The position numbers were made by a program, and so were the translations under genes. A DNA stretch of 48,694 bases. Source: Gemmatimonadota bacterium (GTDB taxonomy: Bacteria > Gemmatimonadota > Gemmatimonadetes > Longimicrobiales > Gaopeijiaceae). Location: positions 1 to 48,694 of the forward strand of contig VYAQ01000024.1 of assembly GCA_009844885.1 (NCBI GenBank), written 5' to 3'. Shown one piece after another: positions 479 through 23,508 of this stretch. The notes beneath the pieces were generated by a model. The model made no database searches. It worked only from the letters and a program-made list of their open reading frames with translations, and was not told the origin of the DNA. Within the stretch, counting starts at the first letter, position 1; every line of letters starts with the position of its first letter.

Positions 479-1927
479 TCAGCTGTTCGCGGAGGTGCCG
501 ACGTGCACCCGCTTCCACCGGGTACCCTCCGGCCCGTCCTCCAGTTGCACGCCCTCGGCAGCCAACTCGTCGCGGAGGCGGTCCGCGGTCTCGAAGTCGC
601 GCCGGGCGCGAGCCTGGTTGCGGGCCTCCACCGTCCGGCGGATCCGCTCCTCCGCTTCGTCGCCCACCTCGCGGCTCCCGGCGGCAAGATCCAATATGCC
701 CAGGACGCCATCCATCTCGCCGAGGACGGCAAGCACTTCGGTGCGGTCCTGGCTCGCAATCCCCCCGCCGGTTCCGTCGAGTCCCGTGTTGACGTCCCTG
801 GCCAGCGCCCACAAAGCAGCCATGGCACGGGGCGCGTTCAGGTCCTGGTCCAGCGCCCGGCCGAACGCCCCGAGATGCTCGCGCGCCGAGGCGGCCAGCG
901 TCCCTCCCTGTCCCGGTGCCGTCGGTGCTTCCCGGATGCGGTGCCGGAGGTCCAGCAGGCGCTGAACCGCGTGGGTGGCGTCTTCGAGGCCGTCTCGCGT
1001 GAAGTTCAGTTCACTGCGGTAGTGCGCCGACAGGAGCACCCAGCGGATCGCGGCGGGATCGTGGCCATCGTCGACGAGCTCCCGTACGGTGTGGAAGTTC
1101 CCGAGCGACTTGGACATCTTGCGGTCGTCGACCTTCAGGTGCTTCACGTGCATCCAGAAGCGGGCGAAGGGCCTGCCGGTGGCCACCTCGGACTGCGCGA
1201 TCTCGTTTTCGTGATGCGGGAAGAGCAGGTCCTCACCCCCAAGGTGGATGTCGATCGTGTCCCCAAGGAGCGCCTGGGCCATGACCGAGCACTCCAGATG
1301 CCACCCCGGCCTGCCCGGCCCCCATGGGGAGTCCCACACGGCCCCCACTTCGCGGTCGGCGGGCTGCGCGGCCTTCCACAGCGCGAAGTCGCGGGCGTCG
1401 CCCTTTTCGTACTCGTCCGAGGTGATGCGCGCGCGCGCCGTCTCCGTCTCCGTTCCCTTCCCGGAGAGACAGCCGTAGTCGCAGAAGGAAGAGACGTCAT
1501 AGTACACGGAGCCGTCGGCCGCGTGATAGGCGTTGCCACCCTGAACCAGCCGCTCGACGAAGTCCAGCATGGCGGGTATGTGCCCGGTGGCGCGCGGGTG
1601 CTGCGAGAACGGAAGGAATCCGAGCGTCCGCGCGTCTTCCAGGAACGCGTCGACGAAGGGCGCCGTGTGCTCGGCCAGCCGCTGTCCCGCCGCGTGTGCT
1701 CCGGCGATGGTCTTGTCGTCCACGTCGGTGAAGTTCACGACGAAATCCACCTCGTAACCCCGCCACTTGAGATGACGGTGCAGCAGATCGTATGCCATGA
1801 AGGCGCGGAAGTTGCCGATGTGGGCGAAGTCGTACACCGTCGGTCCGCAGCCGTAAACGGTGACGCGTCCCGGGTTCAGCGGCACGAAGCCATGGGTGCC
1901 GCGGCGCAGCGAGTCGTAGAGTTTCAT
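479..1927 (-). CDS. cysS: Cysteine--tRNA ligase
   Basis: Class I aminoacyl-tRNA synthetase that charges tRNA-Cys with cysteine in the cytoplasm. The 482-residue product has the usual length. The zinc-binding cysteine precedes the nucleotide-binding motif in YGCGPTVYDFAHIGN (HIGN, residues 36-39), and KMSKS lies at residues 270-274. The conserved GWHLECSVM segment, which holds zinc ligands, is also present. The ATG at 1927 was chosen because MKLYDS is the family's normal beginning; the open frame continues upstream through pyrF in another reading but has no support there. The gene follows pyrF by 35 bases and is the last protein gene of the row before the tRNAs. Confidence 0.97.
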   Translation of the reverse strand: MKLYDSLRRGTHGFVPLNPGRVTVYGCGPTVYDFAHIGNFRAFMAYDLLHRHLKWRGYEVDFVVNFTDVDDKTIAGAHAAGQRLAEHTAPFVDAFLEDARTLGFLPFSQHPRATGHIPAMLDFVERLVQGGNAYHAADGSVYYDVSSFCDYGCLSGKGTETETARARITSDEYEKGDARDFALWKAAQPADREVGAVWDSPWGPGRPGWHLECSVMAQALLGDTIDIHLGGEDLLFPHHENEIAQSEVATGRPFARFWMHVKHLKVDDRKMSKSLGNFHTVRELVDDGHDPAAIRWVLLSAHYRSELNFTRDGLEDATHAVQRLLDLRHRIREAPTAPGQGGTLAASAREHLGAFGRALDQDLNAPRAMAALWALARDVNTGLDGTGGGIASQDRTEVLAVLGEMDGVLGILDLAAGSREVGDEAEERIRRTVEARNQARARRDFETADRLRDELAAEGVQLEDGPEGTRWKRVHVGTSANS

Positions 1928-1962
1928 GCGGTGGAATATAGGCGCACGCGTGGTGCCACGTA

Positions 1963-2658
1963 TCAGCGTCCGCCCTCGGCGTCCGCGACGATGCGCGCGT
2001 AGGCCGCCGCCGGATCGGAGGCGCCGGTGACCGGGCGGCCGACGACGATGTGGGTTGCGCCGTCGCGAAAGGCCTCGCCGGCCGTGCGCACGCGCCGCTG
2101 GTCGTGGACCGCGTCGCCGGGGAGCCGGATCCCCGGGGTGACGATGGCGGAGCCGGGACCCAGTCCGGCCCGCAGCCGTGCCGCCTCGGCCGCCGAACAC
2201 ACTACCCCCGCAAGCCCCGCGTCGCGCACCATGGCCGCGAGGCGATCCGCTTCGCGGCCCACGTCCGGGATCCTGCGTCCGAACACGGCTCCCAGCCCCT
2301 CTTCGTCCAGCGACGTCAACACGGTCACTCCGAGAAGCCCGACCGACCCCCCCGCCGCGGCGGCCGCGGCGCCCAGCATGTCGCGTCCCCCCATCGCATG
2401 CACGGTGAGGAAGGTCACGCCGAGTTCGGCCGCCCGGGCCGTCGCGCCCGCCACCTGGTTCGGGATGTCGTGCAGCTTGAGGTCGAGAAAGACCTGGTGG
2501 CCCCGTTCGCGCAACGCACGCACCACCGCGGATCCGGCCGCGGTGTAGAGTTCGAGCCCCACCTTGTAGAAACGGCACTGCGGCCCGATGCGGTCGACCA
2601 GGCGCAGCGCGTGCTCCGCGCTCGAGGCGTCCAGAGCGACGATCACCCGGTCGTTCAT
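1963..2658 (-). CDS. pyrF: Orotidine 5'-phosphate decarboxylase
   Basis: Catalyses the last step of UMP synthesis, decarboxylation of orotidine monophosphate. The product has 231 residues, normal for the short bacterial type. The start MNDRVIVALD and the signature FLDLKLHDIPN carry the Asp-Lys-x-x-Asp catalytic group, and TPGIRLPG and VVGRPVT form the phosphate-binding end. ATG at 2658 begins 17 bases after the pyrD stop, so pyrD and pyrF are almost certainly cotranscribed and supply consecutive late steps of the same pathway. Confidence 0.96.
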   Translation of the reverse strand: MNDRVIVALDASSAEHALRLVDRIGPQCRFYKVGLELYTAAGSAVVRALRERGHQVFLDLKLHDIPNQVAGATARAAELGVTFLTVHAMGGRDMLGAAAAAAGGSVGLLGVTVLTSLDEEGLGAVFGRRIPDVGREADRLAAMVRDAGLAGVVCSAAEAARLRAGLGPGSAIVTPGIRLPGDAVHDQRRVRTAGEAFRDGATHIVVGRPVTGASDPAAAYARIVADAEGGR

Positions 2659-2675
2659 GGGATCCGGCCCCCTGT

Positions 2676-3548
2676 TCACGCGCCCCAGTTCCGCACCGCG
2701 AGTTGGCGCGCCACCCTGCCCGCGCACCGTGGATCCGCGAAAGATCCGGTACCGACCTGCACGAGCGACGCGCCCGCCGCAAGATAGGTCGCCGCGTCGC
2801 CACCCGTGAGAATGCCGCCCACGCCCACCACCGGCACATCCACGGCCTCGGCGACCTGCCGCACCGCTGCCAGGCCGGCCGGAAGGAGCGCGGGGCCGCT
2901 CATGCCGCCCTGGCCGGCTCCCAGCCGAGGCTTTCCGCCGGCATCGCTGAGCAGTCCCGGGAGCGTATTGATGGCCGTGATGCCGTCGGCACCGCACGCT
3001 ACGGCCAGGGCCGCGGTCGCTCCGATGTCGGGATCGTTGGGCGCGAGCTTGACCAGCAGCGGACGCGCGGTCTGCGGCCGCACGCGATCGAGCACGGCGC
3101 GCATCGCATCGGCATCGAGACAGAACGGCGTCCCGTGCAGATGCGCGTCGTTCGGGCAGGAGAGGTTGAGTTCGAATCCGCAGAACCCCTCCTCCTCCTC
3201 CAATCCCCCTACGACCGCCTCGTATTCGTCCGCGGTCGCTCCCGCAACCGAAACCAGGACGGGAAGATCCCCGAGATGGCGCCGCATCCAGGGCAGCTTC
3301 CGGTCGCGGACACCCTTCAGTCCGGGGTTCGCGAGGCCCACGGAATTGAGCATTCCGCCAGGGTACTCGGTCACGCGAGGCGCTGCGTTTCCCCGACGGG
3401 GCGCGAGCGTGACCGACTTCGTCACGAGCCCCCCTACCTCGCCGGGGGTCATGACGTCGACCAGCGGCTCGCCGAAGCCGCAGGTGCCGGCGGCCATGAG
3501 CACGGGGTTGGCGAAGCGGGTGCCGAACACTTCGCGCGCCGTGCTCAC
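2676..3548 (-). CDS. pyrD: Dihydroorotate dehydrogenase, class 1B catalytic subunit
   Basis: Oxidises dihydroorotate to orotate using FMN. The catalytic base is the cysteine of NLSCPN, which marks class 1; the overall resemblance (TKSVTLAPRRGN, GGMLNSVGLANPG) fits class 1B, which normally works with an iron-sulfur/FAD partner PyrK. No pyrK lies in this window, so the partner must be elsewhere or another electron acceptor is used. The start is GTG at 3548, overlapping the smpB stop by four bases (GTGA), a sign of translational coupling. The 290-residue length is slightly short of the common 300-310. Confidence 0.94.
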   Translation of the reverse strand: MSTAREVFGTRFANPVLMAAGTCGFGEPLVDVMTPGEVGGLVTKSVTLAPRRGNAAPRVTEYPGGMLNSVGLANPGLKGVRDRKLPWMRRHLGDLPVLVSVAGATADEYEAVVGGLEEEEGFCGFELNLSCPNDAHLHGTPFCLDADAMRAVLDRVRPQTARPLLVKLAPNDPDIGATAALAVACGADGITAINTLPGLLSDAGGKPRLGAGQGGMSGPALLPAGLAAVRQVAEAVDVPVVGVGGILTGGDAATYLAAGASLVQVGTGSFADPRCAGRVARQLAVRNWGA

Positions 3549-4033
3549 CCGGTCCGGTCCTTCATCGCTCTCTCCGCCTCACGCTCCATGGTCCTGCGCC
3601 TGAGCACCTCCCGCCGGTCCCGGTGCTTTCTGCCGCGGCAAAGCGCCAGCGTGACCTTGGCTCTGCCCTTGCGGAAATAGATGTCCAGGGGAACGATCGC
3701 GAGCCCCTTTTCCTCGGCCCGCGCGGTGATCCGCCGGATCTCGTTGCGATGAAGCAGCAACTTGCGCGGCCGCGTCTCCTCGTGATTCCACCGATTCCCG
3801 GCCTCGTACGGCGCCACGTGAAGGCTGTGCAGCCACATCTCGCCTGCTTCGGTCCGGGCGTGCGCGTCCTGAAACGCCACCTTGCCCGCGCGGATGGACT
3901 TCACCTCCGTTCCCCACAACACCAACCCGGCTTCCCAGGTGTCCAGGACCTCGTATTGGTGCCGGGCCTTCCTGTTGCGGGCAACGACGCGCCGCGAGCC
4001 ACCAGCAGCCGATGAATGATCCCGCGCGACCAT
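3545..4033 (-). CDS. smpB: SsrA-binding protein SmpB
   Basis: Binds tmRNA and carries it to stalled ribosomes for trans-translation. After an unusual 15-residue leader, the sequence VVARNRKARHQYEVLDTW is the standard SmpB beginning, followed by GTEVKSIRAGK, the LHSLHVAPYEAGN block and a basic C-terminal tail (GRKHRDRREVLRRRT). The product has 162 residues. The only usable start is ATG at 4033, which lies inside a copy of a 48-bp repeat, so about the first ten residues (MVARDHSSAA) are repeat-derived. The gene begins 22 bases after the transaldolase stop and overlaps pyrD by four bases. Confidence 0.95.
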   Translation of the reverse strand: MVARDHSSAAGGSRRVVARNRKARHQYEVLDTWEAGLVLWGTEVKSIRAGKVAFQDAHARTEAGEMWLHSLHVAPYEAGNRWNHEETRPRKLLLHRNEIRRITARAEEKGLAIVPLDIYFRKGRAKVTLALCRGRKHRDRREVLRRRTMEREAERAMKDRTG

Positions 4034-4051
4034 CGAGAGCGGTGAGGCGCC
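4004..4051 (-). repeat. Copy 3 of a 48-bp dispersed junction repeat
   Basis: On the plus strand the unit starts AGCAGCC and ends GGTGAGGCGCC. By direct comparison it matches the copy at 7470-7517 at 37 of 48 positions and the copy at 13528-13575 at 36 of 48, without gaps. It fills the junction between the transaldolase stop and smpB and contains the smpB start codon. It is the most diverged copy. A short hairpin core (CCGC...GCGG) is kept. Its orientation relative to the downstream gene is opposite to that of the other two. Confidence 0.6.
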
Positions 4052-4055
4052 GCGA

Positions 4056-4736
4056 TCAGACCCCTGCCCCCGCCGTCACCGCCATGGCCGCCTCCCTGGC
4101 CTTCCAGTCGGCGAGGAAGCTTGCCATCCCGCGGTCGGTGAGGGGGTGCTTCATGCCCTGCCGGAGGACCTTGAACGGGCAGGTGGCGATATGGGCGCCT
4201 GCCAGCGCGGACTCGATCACGTGACGGGGATGACGGATCGACGCGGCAAGGATCCGGGTGTGGATATCCGGGTCCTGCTCGAAGATGGTGGCAATCTCGC
4301 GGATCAGCTCCATCCCGTCCTCGGACATGTCGTCGACCCGCCCGATGAACGGTGAGACCACAAAAGCCCCCGCCAACGCGGCCATCAGGGCCTGGTTGGC
4401 ATTGAAGATCAGGGTCACGTTGCAACGGATGCCCTCCTGCCCGAGCCGGTAAACCGCCTGCAGCCCCGCCGGAGTGCTCGGCACCTTGATGATGACGTTG
4501 GGGTGCCAGGCCGCGTACTCCCTGCCTTCGGCAACCATGCCGTCGGCGTCTTCCGAGACCGTCTCTGCGCTGATGGGGCCGTCGACCAGGCTGGCGATGG
4601 TCCGGATCGTGTCCTCGAAGTCGGCTCCGGTTTCCTTCGCCATGAGGCTGGGATTGGTCGTTACGCCGCTCAGAATCCCCCAACTCGCGGCTTCGCGGAT
4701 CTCATCCAGGTTGGCGGTGTCCAGGTAGATCTTCAC
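4056..4736 (-). CDS. Transaldolase / fructose-6-phosphate aldolase family protein
   Basis: Class I aldolase of the small transaldolase (TalC/FSA) group. It either transfers the dihydroxyacetone unit between sugar phosphates in the pentose phosphate pathway or cleaves fructose 6-phosphate. The 226-residue product begins [16 protein letters not shown] and has [10 protein letters not shown]; the Schiff-base lysine lies in VIIKVPST, and FVVSPFIGR and the C-terminal [15 protein letters not shown] are typical. The two activities cannot be told apart by eye; bacterial members of this length are usually transaldolases. Translation starts at GTG 4736, with GGAGGAG about ten bases upstream. The pgi and pyk genes upstream in the same row support a role in central sugar metabolism. 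Confidence 0.93.
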
Positions 4737-4769
4737 GTGGGTGGGCTCCTCCGAATGCGCATTGTGTCG

Positions 4770-5177
4770 TCAGGCGTCCCCCTCTGACGCTTGCGGGCTC
4801 TCGCCGTCCGCAAGCTGGCGTCGCGACTCCGCGCGGGCCGCCTCGATGCCCGCGCGGTACGCGGCCTTGGACCGCTCCAGCTTGTCTTCCAGTTCGCCGC
4901 GGGCCTCCGCCGCCATATTCCGTCCCTGGGCCACCACGCCCTTCGCCGAATCCATGCGTGTGCCGATGTCTTCGCGCAGCCCCCGGACCCGCTCCTCGGT
5001 GAGGTCCTTCAGCTTCCTGGCCTGCTCCCGGATCCGCCGCTGGGTTTCGGCGCCCGACCCCGGAGCGAAGAGCAGCGCGAGGCCCGCTCCGACGAGCGCC
5101 CCGACAAGGAACGCTCCGATTTCGGGACCGCGGTCCTTTTCGATAATGACCGTGTGTTGATCTTCTCCAGAACTCAT
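4770..5177 (-). CDS. YtxH-like small membrane-anchored protein
   Basis: A 135-residue protein with one hydrophobic, glycine/alanine-rich segment at about residues 20-42 (GAFLVGALVGAGLALLFAPG), then a long charged helix rich in Arg, Glu and Lys likely to form a coiled coil. This layout matches the YtxH/gas-vesicle-like family, whose function is poorly known and sometimes linked to envelope stress. The start at 5177 is supported by a good GGAGG five bases upstream. It sits between pgi and the transaldolase gene with gaps of about 35 bases, so it may be carried along in the operon rather than share its metabolism. Confidence 0.8.
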   Translation of the reverse strand: MSSGEDQHTVIIEKDRGPEIGAFLVGALVGAGLALLFAPGSGAETQRRIREQARKLKDLTEERVRGLREDIGTRMDSAKGVVAQGRNMAAEARGELEDKLERSKAAYRAGIEAARAESRRQLADGESPQASEGDA

Positions 5178-15086: not shown

Positions 15087-17615
15087 CTACCCGCACTCCG
15101 ACCAGCCGCACACGTAGCAACGCTTGCACCCCTCTTCGAACGCAAGCTGCCCCGCTCCGCACTCCGGACACGCCCCCAGCGTGGTCGCGGTGTGGTCCAC
15201 GAACGGGCTATGTTCCGGCTGCACCGCCGACCCCCCCGTGCCCGCTGCAGTCGCAACCGGCACGTCCATGGGCAATTCCGCCTGGACGCCCTGCTTCTCG
15301 GACATGTACCGCTCCAGAGCCTGGGCGATCGCATCGGGAGCCGACAGGACCTTCTGGGGACCCACGCCCACCGCACGATCGCAGGAAATCCCCCGCAACT
15401 GGTCACGCACTGCCGTAAGCGGTATTCCGGACCGGAGTGAAAGCGATATCAGCCGTCCGATGGCCTCCGAGTCCGCCATCGCCGCTCCGCCGGCCTTGCC
15501 CAGCGTGCAGAAGACTTCGAACGGCTTGCCGTTGTCGTCCTCGTTGACGGTGACGTAGAGATCGCCCAGCGGGGAATCCATCTTCATCGTGCGTCCCGTC
15601 AACATTGACGGCCGCTTCCGCTTGTGACGCGAGGCCGCGGCATTCCGGTCGTGCTCCTCCAGCTCCATGCGGATCCGGTCCAGTTCGCCTTCGAGTTCGT
15701 GCGTCCTGGCCCTCGAATCCGCTAGCTGTCCCCGCAGCCCCTCCAGGTCGACCGAGGCGCCGGCATCCTCTTCCTGGCCGGTCTTGCCGGTGGAAAGGAC
15801 TTGCATCGGTCGGGACCCGTCACGGTACACGGTCACGCCCTTGCACCCCATCTCGAACGCCATCTCGTAGATCTTGCGGACGTCGTCACGGTTGGCTTCG
15901 AAGGGGAAGTTCGTCGTCTTCGAGATCGCCGAATCCACATGGGCCTGGAAGGCGGCCTGCATGCGCACGTGCCACTCGGGCGTGATGTCGTGGGCGGTGC
16001 GGAAGACCTGCTGGACCTCCTCCGGGACCTCGTCGAAATGGATGTGCCCATGCTCGGCGATTTTCTCCATGAGCTCGGGCGTGTACCAGCCCTCCGCCCT
16101 GGCGCGCGCGACGAAGTCGTCGTTGACATCGGGCATCATCACCCCCGCCTGGTTGCGCATGAAAGCCACCGCGAACAGGGGTTCGATGCCCCCGCTGCAC
16201 CCCGCGATGATGGATATGGTCCCCGTGGGAGCCACCGTCGTCAGGTTGCAGTTCCGCAGCTTCCGATGCGGGCGAATGCGGTTGCCGGCGGCGTCTCGCG
16301 CGCAGGCTTCGTCCGGACCCCAGATCGAGTCCTCCCAGGCCGGGAAGGCCCCGCGGGTTTCGGCGAGGCGCTCCGATGCGGCCCTCGTCTCCTCCTCGAT
16401 GAAGGCCATGACGGTGCGCGCCAGCGCGACGCCCTCGTCCGAGTCGTACCTGACGCCCAGACGAACGAGCAGGTCGGCCCAGCCCATGATCCCCAGGCCG
16501 ATGCGCCGGATCTGGTGGGCGAGGTCCGTGATGTCCTGGAGCGGGTAGCGATTCGCGTCGATCACGTTGTCGAGGAAATGGACGGACAGGTGTACCACGC
16601 GGCGGAACGCATCCCAGTCGATACCGTCCTCCGGGCGTTCGAAGTCCCCCTCGCGGACGAAGCAGCCGACGTTGATGCTGCCCAGATTGCAGACGTCGTA
16701 CGGAAGAAGCGGCTGTTCCCCACAGGGATTGGTAGCCTCGTAGCAGCCCAGCCTCGGCACCGGATTGTGCTCGTTGGCGCGGTCGATGAAGAAGACGCCC
16801 GGCTCGCCGGTCTTCCACGCACCCTCGACGATCATGTCGAAGATGTCGCGGGCCTTTTCGCGCCCAACCACATCGCCGGACCGGGGACTCAAGAGGTCGT
16901 ATTCCGCGTCGTCAGCGACCGCCTGCATGAAGGCATCGGTGATCGCGACGGAGATGTTGAAGTTGGTGATCTGCGACGTGTCGTTCTTGCAGCGGATGAA
17001 TTCGCGGATATCGGGATGGTCCACGCGGAGGATCCCCATGTTCGCGCCGCGGCGGGTCCCGCCCTGCTTCACGACCTCGGTCGATGCGTCGTACAGGCGC
17101 ATGAAGGACACCGGACCCGACGCCACCCCCATCGTGGAGCGCACGGTGTCGCCCTCGGGACGCAGCCGCGAGAACGAGAAGCCCGTGCCGCCGCCGGACT
17201 GGTGCACCAGCGCCATCGCGCGCAGCGTATCGTAGATCCCGCTGCGGTCGTTCGACAGGGCATCCTCCACCGGCAGCACGAAGCACGCGGAGAGCTGGCC
17301 GAGCGGACGTCCCGCATTCATGAGCGTTGGTGAATTGGGCTCGAACTTCCCGCTGGTCATCAACTCGTAGAAGGAGCGCGCGACCTCCTCCACGGCGGCA
17401 TCCGAGACCCCGTGCTTCCTGTCCTCGTCCGCAATGACCCGGGCAATGCGCCAGAACATGGTCTCCGGCTCCTCGGTGGGACGGGCGGCCTCGTCCTTCT
17501 TCAGGTACCGGCGCGCGAGGACGATTCGAGCGTTCTCGGAAAGGCTGGCGGGAGCGAGGTCATCGGGAACCTGATCGTCGAACAGACGCGCGGGAGCCGG
17601 AGATGGCGGAGTCAT
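15087..17615 (-). CDS. nrdJ: Vitamin B12-dependent ribonucleotide reductase (class II)
   Basis: Reduces ribonucleotides to deoxyribonucleotides with adenosylcobalamin as radical source. The 842-residue product contains LGQLSACFVLP (redox Cys), GGTRRGANM, NPCGEQPLLPYDVCNLGSIN with the thiyl Cys and Glu, and the NLTTVAPTGTISIIAG phosphate-binding region. After the catalytic barrel comes an Arg/Glu-rich coiled-coil-like stretch at residues 623-665, then a TSCPD domain (FEVFCTLGKAGG), then a C-terminal zinc ribbon (CPECG ... CKRCYVCGWSEC). ATG at 17615 is the family-like start. A candidate NrdR box pair lies about 50-97 bases upstream. No cobalamin riboswitch was found. Confidence 0.96.
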   Translation of the reverse strand: MTPPSPAPARLFDDQVPDDLAPASLSENARIVLARRYLKKDEAARPTEEPETMFWRIARVIADEDRKHGVSDAAVEEVARSFYELMTSGKFEPNSPTLMNAGRPLGQLSACFVLPVEDALSNDRSGIYDTLRAMALVHQSGGGTGFSFSRLRPEGDTVRSTMGVASGPVSFMRLYDASTEVVKQGGTRRGANMGILRVDHPDIREFIRCKNDTSQITNFNISVAITDAFMQAVADDAEYDLLSPRSGDVVGREKARDIFDMIVEGAWKTGEPGVFFIDRANEHNPVPRLGCYEATNPCGEQPLLPYDVCNLGSINVGCFVREGDFERPEDGIDWDAFRRVVHLSVHFLDNVIDANRYPLQDITDLAHQIRRIGLGIMGWADLLVRLGVRYDSDEGVALARTVMAFIEEETRAASERLAETRGAFPAWEDSIWGPDEACARDAAGNRIRPHRKLRNCNLTTVAPTGTISIIAGCSGGIEPLFAVAFMRNQAGVMMPDVNDDFVARARAEGWYTPELMEKIAEHGHIHFDEVPEEVQQVFRTAHDITPEWHVRMQAAFQAHVDSAISKTTNFPFEANRDDVRKIYEMAFEMGCKGVTVYRDGSRPMQVLSTGKTGQEEDAGASVDLEGLRGQLADSRARTHELEGELDRIRMELEEHDRNAAASRHKRKRPSMLTGRTMKMDSPLGDLYVTVNEDDNGKPFEVFCTLGKAGGAAMADSEAIGRLISLSLRSGIPLTAVRDQLRGISCDRAVGVGPQKVLSAPDAIAQALERYMSEKQGVQAELPMDVPVATAAGTGGSAVQPEHSPFVDHTATTLGACPECGAGQLAFEEGCKRCYVCGWSECG

Positions 17616-17790: not shown

Positions 17791-20700
17791 CTAGAACGAA
17801 TTGCCCACGCGCACATGGAAGACGGGATCGTCTTCGAACCTGAGCGGCAGACCGACTCCGGCGCGGATCGTCGTTCCCGGCAGGTACAGGGCCCCCACGA
17901 TCACCGACAATTCCGCACCCACGCTTGCCAGCATCGCCCGACGCGGATTGTCGTAGCCGGTCCGGTCCAGGGTCGGCCCCCAGGCGTTCCCCGCGTCCGC
18001 GAAGACCGCACCGTGCATACGGTCGAAGAAGAGCGGAAACAGGCCGAGCCCCCGGTCGATCACGGCAAGCGGAAAGCGGTATTCCACGCTCCCCGTCCAG
18101 GCGATCCGCCCGGACCGGTAGTTGCTGCGGTAGCCGCGGACCGGGAACAGCCGCGGCGATCCGCCGAAGAGCCCCAGGCCGGTCACGGATTCCACCGTCC
18201 CCTCCGCCCCGCCCGCGTCGAAATGGAACTGGTTGGCCCCGGGTCCCGCAGCCGCACCGGCCGAGAAGCGCAACCCGAGGACGTGATTCGCGAACCCGAG
18301 ACGTCCCAGCGCCTTGTACGCGGACAACTCGCCGCTGATTTCACCGTAGCCGCGGTCCGCGCCGATGACGCCGCGATCCACCGCATCCACACCGCGCTGC
18401 CGGCGCATCCTGGCGGTGACGAAGCCCCGCAGCCCGTCTTCGCGCGAGAAGGACATCGCGCGGCGCTGCGTGTTCGCCGCCGAGAGCGTAGCGCTCAGTT
18501 CCGTGTAGCTCGTACGGGGCGCCGGACTGCTCAGGGTCGGCCCCTCATTCCCATTGGGGTCCTGCAGCGACAACTCTTCGCGGACGACGCCACCTCTGAC
18601 GTACAGGGCGGTGCTTGTACGGTAGCGTCGCCGCAGGAAAGAGGTGGAAAGGAAGGCCCGCCGTTCCCTCTCGATCAGGAAGAACTCACGCGTGGAGTCG
18701 TCCGGAAACCGGACGGAGAGCGTTCTCGAGGAAGCGTCGTGGCTCTGCGACACGGAAAGGCCAAGCGTCGGGTTTCCGAAGCCGTTGTAGTTGTAGGAGA
18801 ACCCGCCGCCGAACCGCCTGTCGTTCAGGCCGACACGCCCGGCGATCGAGTAGCTGTGCCTCCCGACCAGGTCTCGACCCACCAGCCGCATTCCGACCGT
18901 CTGGTCGAACACCTCGCGCCGGACGCCGTCCTGGTCGGTCCCCTCCTCGGCACGCGTGTAGAGGGGAAGCCAGTAGCGCGGCAACAGCGTGGAGCCGGCC
19001 CGGTAGCTCCGCTCGCCGGCGGGACGGCCGGTGCCCTCGTCCAGCCCATATGCCGGCGTCGACGCCTCGGCCTCGGTGGGCCCGGGCGTCGTGGGTTCGA
19101 ACGCACCGTCGAAGCGGATCGGCCGCCCGGCGAAACGCGGGCTGGTCGCCTGCGGCTCGAACCAGTCCCCGGGCGCGTAGGGGATCCGCTCGATATGCCA
19201 GCCGTCGGCGTGGTACGAGGAGTAGTGGATCCACCGGGAGGCCGGGTCCACCGACGGGTGCGAAGCGCCGCCGAGGACATTGGTGACCTGGCGGATCGTG
19301 GCGGAGGAGTCCGCATGCAGCGTGGCGGCGAAGAGGTTCGGAATCCCGGTGCGGTCCGAGGACCAGATGACGGAAGAGCCGTCGGGAGTCCAGAACGGTG
19401 TCGTGTCGACGGCGCGGTCATGCGTCAACTCGACGGTCACCGAACCGCTCTCGTCCAGGACGACGATGTCCATGAACGCCGGCGCGACCCAGCGCACCGC
19501 GACAATCCGGCCGCCGGCCGGCGACCAGCGCGGGTAGGCCCAGTGACGGTCGGCTTGTGGATCCATCAGGGGTGTGACCTCACCGGTGGCCAGGTCCACG
19601 ATGACCAGGTTGTTGGTGCCTCCGCCTTCCTGTACGGCTACGGCCCGCGATCCGTCGGGCGACACGTCCGCGTAGGTCACGCGCTGGCCCCGCGTGAGCC
19701 GGCTTACGGTGCCGTCCGGGGCCGCGCGATAGAGATCGCTGGTCAGCCGGTAGGGATCGGTGAAGTCCAGCTGGCTGAACAGCACTCCGCCGTCGGGCAT
19801 CCACGAAAGAGTGCCTCCCACCCCGTTCACGCGCGTCAGCCGCCGGGCATTCGATCCGTCGGGCGAGGAGACGCGGATCTGGGTCGCGTCCACGCCGTCC
19901 GAGCGGACGAAGGCCAGCCGTTCGCCGTCGGGCGAAACCATGGCCTGCTCCGCCAGCCTCCCGGAACCCTCCACGGTCTCCCCCTCCGTGATCGGGGCCA
20001 CGGCCGCAAGGGCCTCGGCCTCCGCTGCGTACACTGCAGCCATGTGGTTCTGCCACACCTCCCAGCTGTCGGAGACCGTAGTGCCGAAGGCGTCGCGCGC
20101 CGCCGAGTTGAGCCGGAAGGGAACCCACAAGCCCGCCACCGCCCGCGCGTAGTCCCCCATGGACTGCTCGCCGTAGGCCTCCGCCATGTGCGCCAGATAC
20201 CGTGCGCCGTACACGTAGGGACGGTGGCCTGCGGGCCAGACGGGCGAGTGTCCCGATACCTGGTCAAGCGTACCCGGCGATCCCTCCAGGGCGTTCGTCC
20301 TCATCACCATCTCCTGCCAGGTGCCCTTGACCCGGCCGGCACCGGTGAGATGCGACTCGAAGTACGTGGCGAGCCCCTCCGTCAACCAGGTGGGCGTCGC
20401 ACCCGACGGGAATACAGGCCAGACGGCGGGCACCCGCCCGAACACCTTGCGGACCACGTTGCCGAGTGCGCCCGTCATGTCCAGATGGAACGTGTGGACG
20501 AGTTCATGGGTGATGACCAGCTCGAGCCAGTCGTCGAAGTAGGAGATGCTCCCGCCATCCGTGGGCGGGCGGGCAAAGATCGTGATCCGGTTGTACGGGT
20601 TGGGGGACGCGAAGCCGTTGGCGATGTCCGCGTGATCGGTCAGCAGCAGCTGGACCGGGACCGCCGGGGTGTCGACGAAACGCTCCGCCAGCACGGTGTA

Positions 20701-20910
20701 CGCCCGCTCCGCCAGGGCTGCCGCCCGTGTGGCCAGATCACCCAGCCGAGCCGGGTATGTGACGACGAAATGGTCGGTCGGGAATTCGCGCCATTCCTCG
20801 TTGGGTGGCGTGGTCTGCGCCTGCAGCGGCAGGGCGGAAACGAGACAGATGGCGGCGAGCGCCACGACGGTTGGCTGAAGGAAGCGCCCGTGGCCGGTTT
20901 GTCTGTTCAT
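17791..20910 (-). CDS. Zinc peptidase / TolB-like propeller / Omp85-like barrel fusion protein
   Basis: A 1039-residue envelope protein with three parts. Residues 1-32 are a signal peptide (VVALAAICLVSALPLQAQ). Residues of about 40-290 resemble gluzincin peptidases (peptidase MA-like): HELVH at 135-139 and the third ligand Glu178 in WLTEGLATYFES. Residues of about 295-620 hold TolB/PD40 propeller repeats (VSPDGERLAFV, VSPDGSRAVAV, WTPDGSSVIWSSD). From about 690 to the end, alternating strands form a barrel with VRGY at 924-927, EYRFPL, and a terminal aromatic residue (VGNSF), as in Omp85/BamA-type proteins. No POTRA domain was recognised. It lies 22 bases after the glycosyltransferase gene. 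Catalysis and substrate are unproven. Confidence 0.85.
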   Translation of the reverse strand: MNRQTGHGRFLQPTVVALAAICLVSALPLQAQTTPPNEEWREFPTDHFVVTYPARLGDLATRAAALAERAYTVLAERFVDTPAVPVQLLLTDHADIANGFASPNPYNRITIFARPPTDGGSISYFDDWLELVITHELVHTFHLDMTGALGNVVRKVFGRVPAVWPVFPSGATPTWLTEGLATYFESHLTGAGRVKGTWQEMVMRTNALEGSPGTLDQVSGHSPVWPAGHRPYVYGARYLAHMAEAYGEQSMGDYARAVAGLWVPFRLNSAARDAFGTTVSDSWEVWQNHMAAVYAAEAEALAAVAPITEGETVEGSGRLAEQAMVSPDGERLAFVRSDGVDATQIRVSSPDGSNARRLTRVNGVGGTLSWMPDGGVLFSQLDFTDPYRLTSDLYRAAPDGTVSRLTRGQRVTYADVSPDGSRAVAVQEGGGTNNLVIVDLATGEVTPLMDPQADRHWAYPRWSPAGGRIVAVRWVAPAFMDIVVLDESGSVTVELTHDRAVDTTPFWTPDGSSVIWSSDRTGIPNLFAATLHADSSATIRQVTNVLGGASHPSVDPASRWIHYSSYHADGWHIERIPYAPGDWFEPQATSPRFAGRPIRFDGAFEPTTPGPTEAEASTPAYGLDEGTGRPAGERSYRAGSTLLPRYWLPLYTRAEEGTDQDGVRREVFDQTVGMRLVGRDLVGRHSYSIAGRVGLNDRRFGGGFSYNYNGFGNPTLGLSVSQSHDASSRTLSVRFPDDSTREFFLIERERRAFLSTSFLRRRYRTSTALYVRGGVVREELSLQDPNGNEGPTLSSPAPRTSYTELSATLSAANTQRRAMSFSREDGLRGFVTARMRRQRGVDAVDRGVIGADRGYGEISGELSAYKALGRLGFANHVLGLRFSAGAAAGPGANQFHFDAGGAEGTVESVTGLGLFGGSPRLFPVRGYRSNYRSGRIAWTGSVEYRFPLAVIDRGLGLFPLFFDRMHGAVFADAGNAWGPTLDRTGYDNPRRAMLASVGAELSVIVGALYLPGTTIRAGVGLPLRFEDDPVFHVRVGNSF

Positions 20911-20932: not shown

Positions 20933-22615
20933 TCATTGATCGAGGATCGGCACCGTCATCGAGGCGATTTCGGCCGCGGACGGCAAGGTATGGTCCACGG
21001 CGTCGGGGCACGGCAACACGGCGTACGCCGTTTCGTCGGGGACCGTGACATCATCGGACACCGGCGGCATGATCGCCAGCATGGATACCGGAGACTCACG
21101 GTCGTAGCCGAGCTGGGCCACGACGCAGAATCGGTTCGGACTGGCGCTCAGCACCGGATCGACGTAGAGGCGGCCGGTTGTGTCCCAGTTGCCGCGCACG
21201 AGGTATCGGACGTCCATGGAGTCGGCCTCCGTGAGCAGGCTTCGGCCATCGGTCGTGAAGGGATACGTGACCGACGGCAGCCCGCTGAAGACGTGGAAGA
21301 GACGGGGCTTGCGGCTGAAGACGACCGAACCCTCGGGCAGGTTTCTGCCCGCCCACAGCGCCATCGCGTGAAGCTCGCCGACGGTCCCCGGGTAGCACCC
21401 CATCGGCCCCACGGTCTCCACCACGGCCCGGCACTGCGCGGCCCGCTCGGCCCGCTGGTACCACGTCTTGCCGGCAGGGATCAGAAACACCGCACCCGCC
21501 GCAACCACCGCGGCGCCGCCAAGCCACGGCAACCACGCGGCTTCCGCATCGCCTGCCCGCAACCTCCGGAACATCAGCGCGGCCGACTCGCCGGCATAGA
21601 GCAGCAGCAAGGGAAGGATGGGCAGAGCGAAGCGGTCCCCCGACCATGCCGCCGGCCAGGCCACGATCAGCCCCACATAGAGGAAGAAGAAGATCTCGCT
21701 GACCTGCGGACCCGCACGCATGCGGCGTACCCACCCCGCGAGCGCCAACGCGGCCAACAGCATACCGATGGTGCCGGCGGGCAGGCCATCCAGACCGGTG
21801 AGACCGGCCGGGACATATTCGGTGGTATAGGTCCACAGGTTCTCCGCCACCCTTCCAACGAGTTCCATCGGGCCCGCGCGACCCAGATCGGGAGCGTAGG
21901 GATTGACGAGCCAGAACTCGGAGACGTAGTCCGCACCGGCGCGCAACTGCCACAGGAGACCCGGGACCGCGAACAGCCCGGCAAACGCCGCCAGCGGCCT
22001 CCAGCGCCTTTGCAGCGCCAGCCAGACGACAACGGCAATGAGCAGCGGAAGTCCAGCCGACCGGGTGAAGTACGCTGCCGTCGCGGCAACCAGACCGAGG
22101 ACCAGCGAGCGCGTCGACACGTCCGGGTCCGGGGTCAGCAGCCACAGGCACGCCAGGGTAAGCACCATGAAGAGCGGGTCCGCCAGTATCCATTGGGCGG
22201 AGAACAACACGGCCGGGGCTACGGCAAAGAGGGCGGATACGGCCACGGCGGCTCGGGGGCCGCGAGCCTTCCGAACCATCAGGAAACAGGCAGCTACCGC
22301 GAGTCCAGTGAACATCATCGACGCCACCTTGAAGGCTCCCCAGGTCTTGGCGCCCAACAGCATCATCAGCGCCAGCACGGCAGGATACAGCGGCGGGTAC
22401 TTGGTGTGCGGTGGAGCCCCGGGGTGCCATGACTCGACATAGCGGCCTTCCGAGGCAAGCGAGTTGGCCAGGGACACGTAAGCCGCGTTGTCTCCGCCCG
22501 TGTGTATTGAGGGCGAGGCCGACAGAAACGCCAGCACGAGGTGGACCAGAACCAGAGTCGCGGGGACGAGCCAGCGTTCCGCCGAGGGAAAGCGCCTCTC
22601 GGCCATGGCGGTCAC
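20933..22615 (-). CDS. GT39/ArnT-like integral membrane glycosyltransferase
   Basis: A 560-residue polytopic protein with about ten hydrophobic segments between residues 15 and 400, and a C-terminal periplasmic part of about 160 residues. The first external loop carries the acidic motif GGDNAAYVSLANSL, followed by HTKYPPLYP, as in GT39/GT83 enzymes. These transfer sugars from polyprenyl-phosphate carriers to proteins or lipids on the outer side of the inner membrane. The acceptor is unknown. GTG at 22615 overlaps the murQ stop by four bases (GTGA); ATG at 22606 is an alternative start. It is followed by the peptidase-barrel gene, so a link to glycosylation of envelope material is possible. 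Confidence 0.85.
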   Translation of the reverse strand: MTAMAERRFPSAERWLVPATLVLVHLVLAFLSASPSIHTGGDNAAYVSLANSLASEGRYVESWHPGAPPHTKYPPLYPAVLALMMLLGAKTWGAFKVASMMFTGLAVAACFLMVRKARGPRAAVAVSALFAVAPAVLFSAQWILADPLFMVLTLACLWLLTPDPDVSTRSLVLGLVAATAAYFTRSAGLPLLIAVVVWLALQRRWRPLAAFAGLFAVPGLLWQLRAGADYVSEFWLVNPYAPDLGRAGPMELVGRVAENLWTYTTEYVPAGLTGLDGLPAGTIGMLLAALALAGWVRRMRAGPQVSEIFFFLYVGLIVAWPAAWSGDRFALPILPLLLLYAGESAALMFRRLRAGDAEAAWLPWLGGAAVVAAGAVFLIPAGKTWYQRAERAAQCRAVVETVGPMGCYPGTVGELHAMALWAGRNLPEGSVVFSRKPRLFHVFSGLPSVTYPFTTDGRSLLTEADSMDVRYLVRGNWDTTGRLYVDPVLSASPNRFCVVAQLGYDRESPVSMLAIMPPVSDDVTVPDETAYAVLPCPDAVDHTLPSAAEIASMTVPILDQ

Positions 22616-23508
22616 CGGTCGGGGCCCAGCGCGGCGACCACGCCTTGCACCCGATCGAGTGCTTCCTTCGCCTCGTCACGCTCCAGGCCCAACCGATGCA
22701 TGACGAGCGCGGTCTTGACGTGTCCCCCGGCCCGGCTCAGCAGTCCGGTAGCGCTCTCGCGGCCGAGCCCGAGCGTCGCCATCAGGATGCGTTCGCCCCG
22801 GTCCCGAAGCTTCTCGCAGGTCACCTGAAGGTCCACCATCAGATTGCCGTCCACCTTGCCGAGGCGGATCATCGCGGCCGTGGTGAGCGTGTTGAGCACC
22901 ATCTTGGTAGCGGTGCCGGCCTTCATGCGGGTCGACCCCGTGACGACCTCGGGGCCCGTGAGCGGGGCGATCACGACATCGTGGGCCGTCCGCAAGGCGC
23001 GGTCCGGAGGCGTGCACAGGAGGAAGCCGGTGCGCGCTCCCCGCTCCCGCGCCCGTGCCAGGGCGCCGTGCACGTACGGCGTCGTTCCGGAAGTCGCGAT
23101 TCCCATCACGAAGTCGCGAGGACCGACCTCCCTTTCGTCCATGGCCGCCGCGCCGTCCGCGGGATGGTCTTCGGCCCCCTCCTGCGACCGCACCAGCGCC
23201 TCGAGGCCGCCGGCGATCACACCCTGTACCATCTCGGGGTCGGTGCCGTACGTGGGTGGCATCTCCGTCGCGTCCAGAACACCGAGTCGGCCCGATGTTC
23301 CCGCACCCACATAGATGAGCCGCCCGCCGCGGCGGAACGAGGCGACGGCCAGGTCGACGGCCTCGGCAATGGCTGCGGCTTCGCTGCGCACCGCCTGGGC
23401 CACCCAATGGTCCTCTTCGTTGATGATCCGGACGACCTCGAGCGACGAACGGCGATCGATGGCCTCGCTGCGAGGGTTCCGTTGCTCCGTCAGGCGGTCG
23501 TCCAGCAT
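22612..23508 (-). CDS. murQ: N-acetylmuramic acid 6-phosphate etherase
   Basis: Cytoplasmic SIS-domain enzyme that removes the lactyl ether from MurNAc 6-phosphate during peptidoglycan recycling. The 298-residue product begins TEQRNPRSEAIDRRS and contains YVGAGTSGRLGVLDATE, GIATSGTTPYVHGAL, and TGSTRMKAGTATKMVLNTL with the catalytic acidic residues of the family. ATG at 23508 is the natural start; the gene faces away from the gamma-glutamyltransferase gene across 75 bases. No MurNAc kinase or PTS gene is next to it. It leads an operon with the glycosyltransferase and the peptidase-barrel protein. Confidence 0.95.
   Translation of the reverse strand: MLDDRLTEQRNPRSEAIDRRSSLEVVRIINEEDHWVAQAVRSEAAAIAEAVDLAVASFRRGGRLIYVGAGTSGRLGVLDATEMPPTYGTDPEMVQGVIAGGLEALVRSQEGAEDHPADGAAAMDEREVGPRDFVMGIATSGTTPYVHGALARARERGARTGFLLCTPPDRALRTAHDVVIAPLTGPEVVTGSTRMKAGTATKMVLNTLTTAAMIRLGKVDGNLMVDLQVTCEKLRDRGERILMATLGLGRESATGLLSRAGGHVKTALVMHRLGLERDEAKEALDRVQGVVAALGPDR

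Follow-up and report, generated by a model that had tools for sequence, protein, structure and literature searches.

A predicted zinc peptidase, a TolB-like propeller and an Omp85-type barrel joined in one protein of Gemmatimonadota and encoded beside peptidoglycan recycling genes

Our analysis of a 48,694-nucleotide stretch of DNA from a Gemmatimonadota bacterium (here referred to as the window) revealed a gene whose product almost certainly unites three parts in a single chain: a peptidase, a TolB-like propeller and an Omp85 barrel without POTRA domains. Apart from PlpD, the characterized Omp85 proteins assemble or translocate proteins, and subfamilies bearing enzymes or propellers are recognized and unexplained; the metalloprotease and WD40 Omp85 subfamilies were still listed as poorly characterized in 2024 (PMC11116518). 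We tentatively propose, at slightly less than even odds, that the window protein is a zinc metalloprotease anchored in the outer membrane, facing the periplasm and serving envelope maintenance linked to peptidoglycan turnover. The architecture, with its conserved gluzincin site and its ties by gene order to cell-wall recycling, yields a testable hypothesis of a membrane-anchored protease at the interface between the outer membrane and peptidoglycan. The features of the gene and its neighbors are collected in Table 1.

Table 1. Features of the peptidase-propeller-barrel gene and of adjoining genes in the window
Feature	Position	Strand	Basis or remark
Whole gene, peptidase-propeller-Omp85 barrel protein	17791..20910	(-)	1039 aa + stop, ATG start, single frame
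Putative Sec signal peptide, residues 1-32	20815..20910	(-)	Hydrophobic core, then ...LQAQ; pLDDT <50 at 1-31
Predicted gluzincin-fold zinc-peptidase domain, residues 33-308	19987..20814	(-)	Domain-only AlphaFold2 model, Foldseek, weak family-wide Pfam matches
HELVH zinc motif, residues 135-139	20494..20508	(-)	H135, E136, H139 58/58
Glu178, predicted third zinc ligand, in WLTEGLATYFE motif	20377..20379	(-)	58/58
Glu185, second invariant acidic residue, on helix shared with Glu178	20356..20358	(-)	58/58
Six-bladed TolB-like beta propeller, residues ~311-577	19180..19980	(-)	PD40; TolB E 7.5e-28; AlphaFold2 strands; Foldseek 2ojh
Variable linker, residues 578-640, no POTRA	18991..19179	(-)	Low pLDDT 598-627; median identity 22%
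16-stranded Omp85-type beta barrel, residues ~641-1039	17794..18990	(-)	PF01103; AlphaFold2; Foldseek BamA 8xnb
VRGY, residues 924-927, loop between barrel strands 11/12 (L6 position)	18130..18141	(-)	AlphaFold2; R925, G926 58/58
EYRFPL, residues 943-948	18067..18084	(-)	E943 57/58; R945, P947 58/58
FADAG, residues 970-974 (Omp85 FxDxG motif)	17989..18003	(-)	F970 58/58, D972 57/58
Upstream gene, 560 aa, PMT_2-like membrane glycosyltransferase	20933..22615	(-)	PF13231 sub-threshold; 22 bp ahead of peptidase gene
murQ-like gene (MurNAc-6-phosphate etherase / SIS domain)	22612..23508	(-)	4-bp overlap with glycosyltransferase gene
Downstream gene, ribonucleotide reductase large subunit with TSCPD domain	15087..17615	(-)	Neighbor of the family in relatives too

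Domain architecture

The open reading frame marked by the initial annotation proved genuine. In Pfam, the Omp85 profile PF01103 matched residues 688-1027 (E value of 7e-10; 39.3 bits against a cut-off of 24), the PD40 profile PF07676 also exceeded its cut-off, and a sub-threshold match to DUF1570 spanned the E178 region; the window protein gave no match to Peptidase_MA_2. In NCBIfam, the propeller resembled TolB with an E value of 7.5e-28, although its 97.6 bits did not reach the TIGR02800 equivalog cut-off of 343. Neither Pfam nor NCBIfam returned a POTRA match in the window protein and the POTRA fold was likewise absent from the structural model, in line with the POTRA-less layout noted at the outset.

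A full-length AlphaFold2 model, computed from an alignment of 60 homologues, reached a mean pLDDT of 88.8 and a pTM of 0.88. The predicted structure comprised a mostly helical N-terminal domain, approximately 24 propeller strands (residues 311-577) and 16 barrel strands within residues 664-1035, and the VRGY motif was located in a 47-residue loop between barrel strands 11 and 12, the position of L6 in BamA. The 16 barrel strands for which the initial annotation had advised looking were thus recovered. Where BamA and TamA carry their POTRA domains, the model has only a low-confidence stretch of linker (pLDDT <50, residues 598-627) that is probably disordered. When the full model was compared with the PDB by Foldseek, it matched BamA (8xnb, TM 0.63) and TolB-type propellers (2ojh, TM 0.65), both scores being by target, and a viral structure library yielded generic propeller and barrel matches only. 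Inspection of the sequence of the putative signal peptide (residues 1-32) revealed no lipobox. Ahead of the barrel, a segment of the form YxxxxTLxPxYWxP (residues 636-649; window positions 18964-19005, minus strand) is nearly invariant, with P644 and P649 present in 60/60 sequences and Y636 and W647 in 59/60; it is possibly a plug or seal.

The peptidase domain was also folded alone, and the resulting model (pLDDT 78.5) is less certain than that of the whole protein. Its Foldseek matches were M1 aminopeptidases, the tricorn factor F3, clostridial collagenases (M9) and M61 peptidases, with TMq values of 0.44-0.58 and a probability of 1.00, at a sequence identity of only 9-18%. The peptidase domains of M1 aminopeptidases, tricorn factor F3 and clostridial collagenases share with the window protein the gluzincin fold and the HExxH...E site. 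Across the peptidase domains of the family, weak matches to Peptidase_MA_2, BSP and DUF1570 were scattered; those to Peptidase_MA_2 (PF13485) occurred at E values of ≤0.01 in 8/45 members, the best being 6.4e-6. The M48 profile PF01435 matched weakly (E value of 0.007) in one of the 45 domains, and it did not match the window protein.

The propeller shares with TolB its six blades and PD40 repeats, while the N-terminal domain of TolB is absent from the window protein. The label 'Metallo' carried by one Omp85 subfamily may be misleading, and PF00149 presumably represents a calcineurin-like phosphoesterase, not a protease. According to the 2014 survey by Heinz and Lithgow, it is PF00149 that defines this 'Metallo' subfamily (PMC4104836). 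That article also names a WD40-Omp85 subfamily, consisting of an N-terminal TolB-like propeller and an Omp85 barrel without POTRA, and its text mentions no peptidase domain there (PMC4104836). Compared with the subfamily as described there, the window protein falls within the definition and adds a peptidase, and on this description its family is a peptidase-bearing version of a propeller-Omp85 class that was already known (PMC4104836). The initial annotation was right that no function had been described for the arrangement, although a class of propeller-Omp85 proteins had been reported in 2014. Literature searches on Gemmatimonadota with PD40 or murein recycling retrieved nothing specific to the window protein.

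Conservation of the predicted active site and of the barrel motifs

Relatives found by scanning genome contigs had been selected by a pattern containing HExxH, which makes the conservation of this motif in that set circular. Conservation was therefore remeasured on 58 homologues gathered by a whole-protein search without any motif filter. All of them retained H135, E136, H139, E178, E185, R925, G926, R945, P947 and F970, and 57 of the 58 retained E943, D972 and F1039. The peptidase motif consists of HExxH and a downstream Glu, E178, located 43 residues beyond H135, a spacing that sets it apart from M1 aminopeptidases, tricorn factor F3 and clostridial collagenases. Given its invariance in this unfiltered set, Glu178 very likely binds zinc in the manner of gluzincins, which bears out the reading of HELVH and Glu178 as a gluzincin-like site. 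The Omp85 hallmarks that had been noticed in the C-terminal third, namely VRGY, EYRFPL and the terminal Phe, thus contain nearly or fully invariant residues as well (R925 and G926; E943, R945 and P947; F1039). When domains were compared by median identity, the peptidase was the most conserved (49%), followed by the propeller (47%), the barrel (38%) and the linker (22%).

Gene neighborhood

From head to tail, the order in the window is murQ, the glycosyltransferase gene, the peptidase gene and then the ribonucleotide reductase gene. Upstream sequence of at least 5.5 kb was available for 49 Gemmatimonadota loci, and 48 of these contained at least one co-directional murQ, anmK, nagZ, ampG or Amidase_3 gene upstream (murQ 43, anmK 25, Amidase_3 9, nagZ 4 and ampG 3); neighbor identities were checked by Pfam on examples, and because gene order is inherited, these 48 loci are not independent events. 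The upstream recycling genes hold in relatives down to 31% identity and their set varies: murQ with a glycosyltransferase gene, murQ and anmK with a glycosyltransferase gene and, in distant relatives, murQ-anmK-nagZ-ampG-amidase or murQ-anmK-SSF-amidase. In several relatives, the amidase gene abuts or overlaps the peptidase gene.

The copies of Latescibacterota and Acidobacteriota had peptidoglycan genes nearby in 0/8 loci and, in a quick tree, nested within Longimicrobiales, which together suggests that the gene alone may have been transferred to other phyla. Furthermore, some Gemmatimonadota genomes without the peptidase gene still have the amidase, and the window genome itself (G000, 94% complete) yielded no anmK match and retained murQ, while its relatives have anmK directly after murQ. 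Judging by these patterns of gene content, the recycling pathway does not strictly require the window protein, nor is the protein bound to it. In one genome without the peptidase gene (G047; L216, ~650-5057), the amidase is directly followed by the ribonucleotide reductase and the slot of the peptidase is empty. In other such genomes, long proteins with weak TPR matches are encoded near the amidase (L211 2478-4886, L215 2550-4883 and L212 672-3182).

Alternatively, the neighborhood could be an old gene order that has persisted inertly, in which case the protein would be a periplasmic protease of general function, unconnected with peptidoglycan. The unrelated ribonucleotide reductase gene belongs to the block and is likewise conserved, so the synteny may be partly inert, and the cluster is missing around the copies that were apparently transferred. 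However, the upstream set changes and yet stays within one pathway, and such shifting membership at a constant pathway is not predicted by plain inertia. We consider this explanation unlikely.

We are similarly doubtful that the protein performs quality control of outer membrane protein assembly, an envelope role of the kind that the initial annotation had considered, as a one-chain analogue of BepA, BamB and BamA whose barrel would sit at BAM or on assembly intermediates and whose peptidase would cut the stalled ones. Its parts do match in type the periplasmic gluzincin BepA, the propeller BamB and the barrel BamA, and the Omp85 motifs are conserved, R925 and D972 among them. BepA is moreover known to act at BAM (PMC8423444; PMC13067283), and as a gluzincin that operates in the periplasm on an Omp85 barrel (PMC8423444), it is, by analogy, the closest functional counterpart of the window protein. 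BepA, however, is a separate soluble M48 protein, whereas the window protein is predicted to be one membrane-anchored chain with a gluzincin of another lineage, and the sole weak M48 match in the family speaks against this reading. The model also lacks a POTRA domain, no bam, sur or lpt genes were seen linked to the gene in the neighborhoods examined, and the genes that are linked belong to peptidoglycan turnover.

Orientation and proposed role

Outer membrane barrels generally keep their C-terminus in the periplasm, and with an even number of strands, here 16, the N-terminal domains would then stay in the periplasm too. In the single predicted model, the loops opposite the N-terminus average 15 residues versus 5.4 on the N-terminal side, and the far-side loops are also more variable (entropy of 2.34 versus 1.55). 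A periplasmic orientation of both the peptidase and the propeller is therefore predicted by the model and appears likely.

The initial annotation had drawn an analogy with type Vd secretion. On such a reading, the barrel would export the peptidase and the propeller to the cell surface or beyond, for nutrition or defense. Omp85 barrels such as FhaC are able to translocate protein, and both the combination of enzyme and barrel and the variable linker fit such a role. On the other hand, the loop asymmetry and the even strand count set the N-terminus inside, the model has no POTRA, two folded domains of ~550 residues would need to cross, and the peptidoglycan recycling neighbors point inward. The type Vd archetype PlpD resembles the window protein in having an N-terminal enzyme on an Omp85 barrel but differs in carrying a patatin lipase and one POTRA, whereas the window protein has a gluzincin and a propeller, no POTRA and no patatin. 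Since the enzyme domain of PlpD was shown to be periplasmic (PMC11116518), the comparison itself argues against secretion, and passage of the passenger across the outer membrane is disputed even for PlpD. Self-secretion was accordingly set aside as the main reading on the grounds of topology and the PlpD data, and we hold it to be quite improbable. Still less credence is due to an uptake device, whose barrel would admit peptides or muropeptides and whose peptidase would trim them for import by neighboring AmpG or SSF carriers: ampG, nagZ or sodium-symporter genes share the block in some relatives, but carriers occur in a minority of loci only (ampG 3/49, nagZ 4/49), the copies outside the phylum lack them, and Omp85 barrels are normally closed by L6.

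The reading that we favor, a periplasm-facing protease anchored in the outer membrane, draws its orientation from the topology of the model and from the periplasmic enzyme domain of PlpD. The barrel would be inserted by BAM and would mainly anchor the enzyme, while the propeller, joined to the barrel by a flexible linker, would screen substrates, either unfolded proteins or peptides, or hand them on to the zinc site. Propellers gate substrates in tricorn-type and S9 peptidases, and by analogy the propeller may be a substrate gate or a docking surface. Envelope maintenance might involve, for example, the processing of proteins or peptides that are freed or exposed during wall remodeling by the amidase and the recycling enzymes. 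Such a tie to peptidoglycan turnover is plausible, if not quite an even bet, and peptidoglycan recycling has been linked to outer membrane integrity in Acinetobacter (PMC9239154).

Distribution and a paralogous family

Family matches were found in 211/298 Gemmatimonadota genomes (E value of ≤1e-20) and in 28/64 Latescibacterota and 17/297 Acidobacteriota genomes (E value of ≤1e-30). In addition, a paralog with the identical three-domain order, here called family B, is present in 198/200 Gemmatimonadota genomes, including that of the window (L058 1786-4992; L180 7863-11021). These counts show that the three-part arrangement is a large family, near-universal in Gemmatimonadota when the paralog is included, and the view of it as a singular oddity is ruled out by its spread over three phyla and by the paralog. 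Several metagenome-assembled genomes titled or ranked as Gammaproteobacteria/Pseudomonadota (L091, L092, L093, L118, L123 and L124) have the gene block of Gemmatimonadota and cluster with that phylum; they are probably mislabeled.

Family B shares ~21% identity with the window protein and ends in GW instead of F, and a profile-profile comparison of the two families indicated full-length homology (probability of 100, E value of 1e-43, 820 columns). While the window-type gene adjoins murQ, family B adjoins mlaD and mlaF, which belong to an outer membrane lipid system. These two genes lay beside family B in 20/20 tested loci of one family (L160-L179) and were not beside it in two distant loci (L188 and L189). 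In the window genome, the family B gene is accompanied by convergent mlaD, mlaF and mlaE (L180 7863-14156; G000:C146). More speculatively, and in our judgment rather unlikely, the protein could represent a phylum-wide class of envelope machine, in which a single chain would couple peptidoglycan turnover (amidase and muropeptide recycling) with proteolysis on the inner side of the outer membrane, and the sister paralog would be tied to outer membrane lipid transport. If true, this would give the Omp85 proteins a role outside both assembly and secretion.

A search of plasmids gave propeller-level matches and one peptidase-propeller protein without a barrel. The latter, WP_118831798.1 of a Salinibacter ruber plasmid (L201 2581-4482), resembles the window protein in combining a peptidase, annotated as basic secretory protein-like, with a propeller, but its 633 aa leave no room for a barrel; it is possibly a soluble relative. 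In the window genome, a TolB-like protein (C35) is encoded separately and Omp85 matches occur in two further proteins, so a replacement of TolB or BamA by the window protein was rejected. The same genome contains about 50 TolB-like propeller matches at an E value of ≤1e-10, a large expansion of PD40 proteins.
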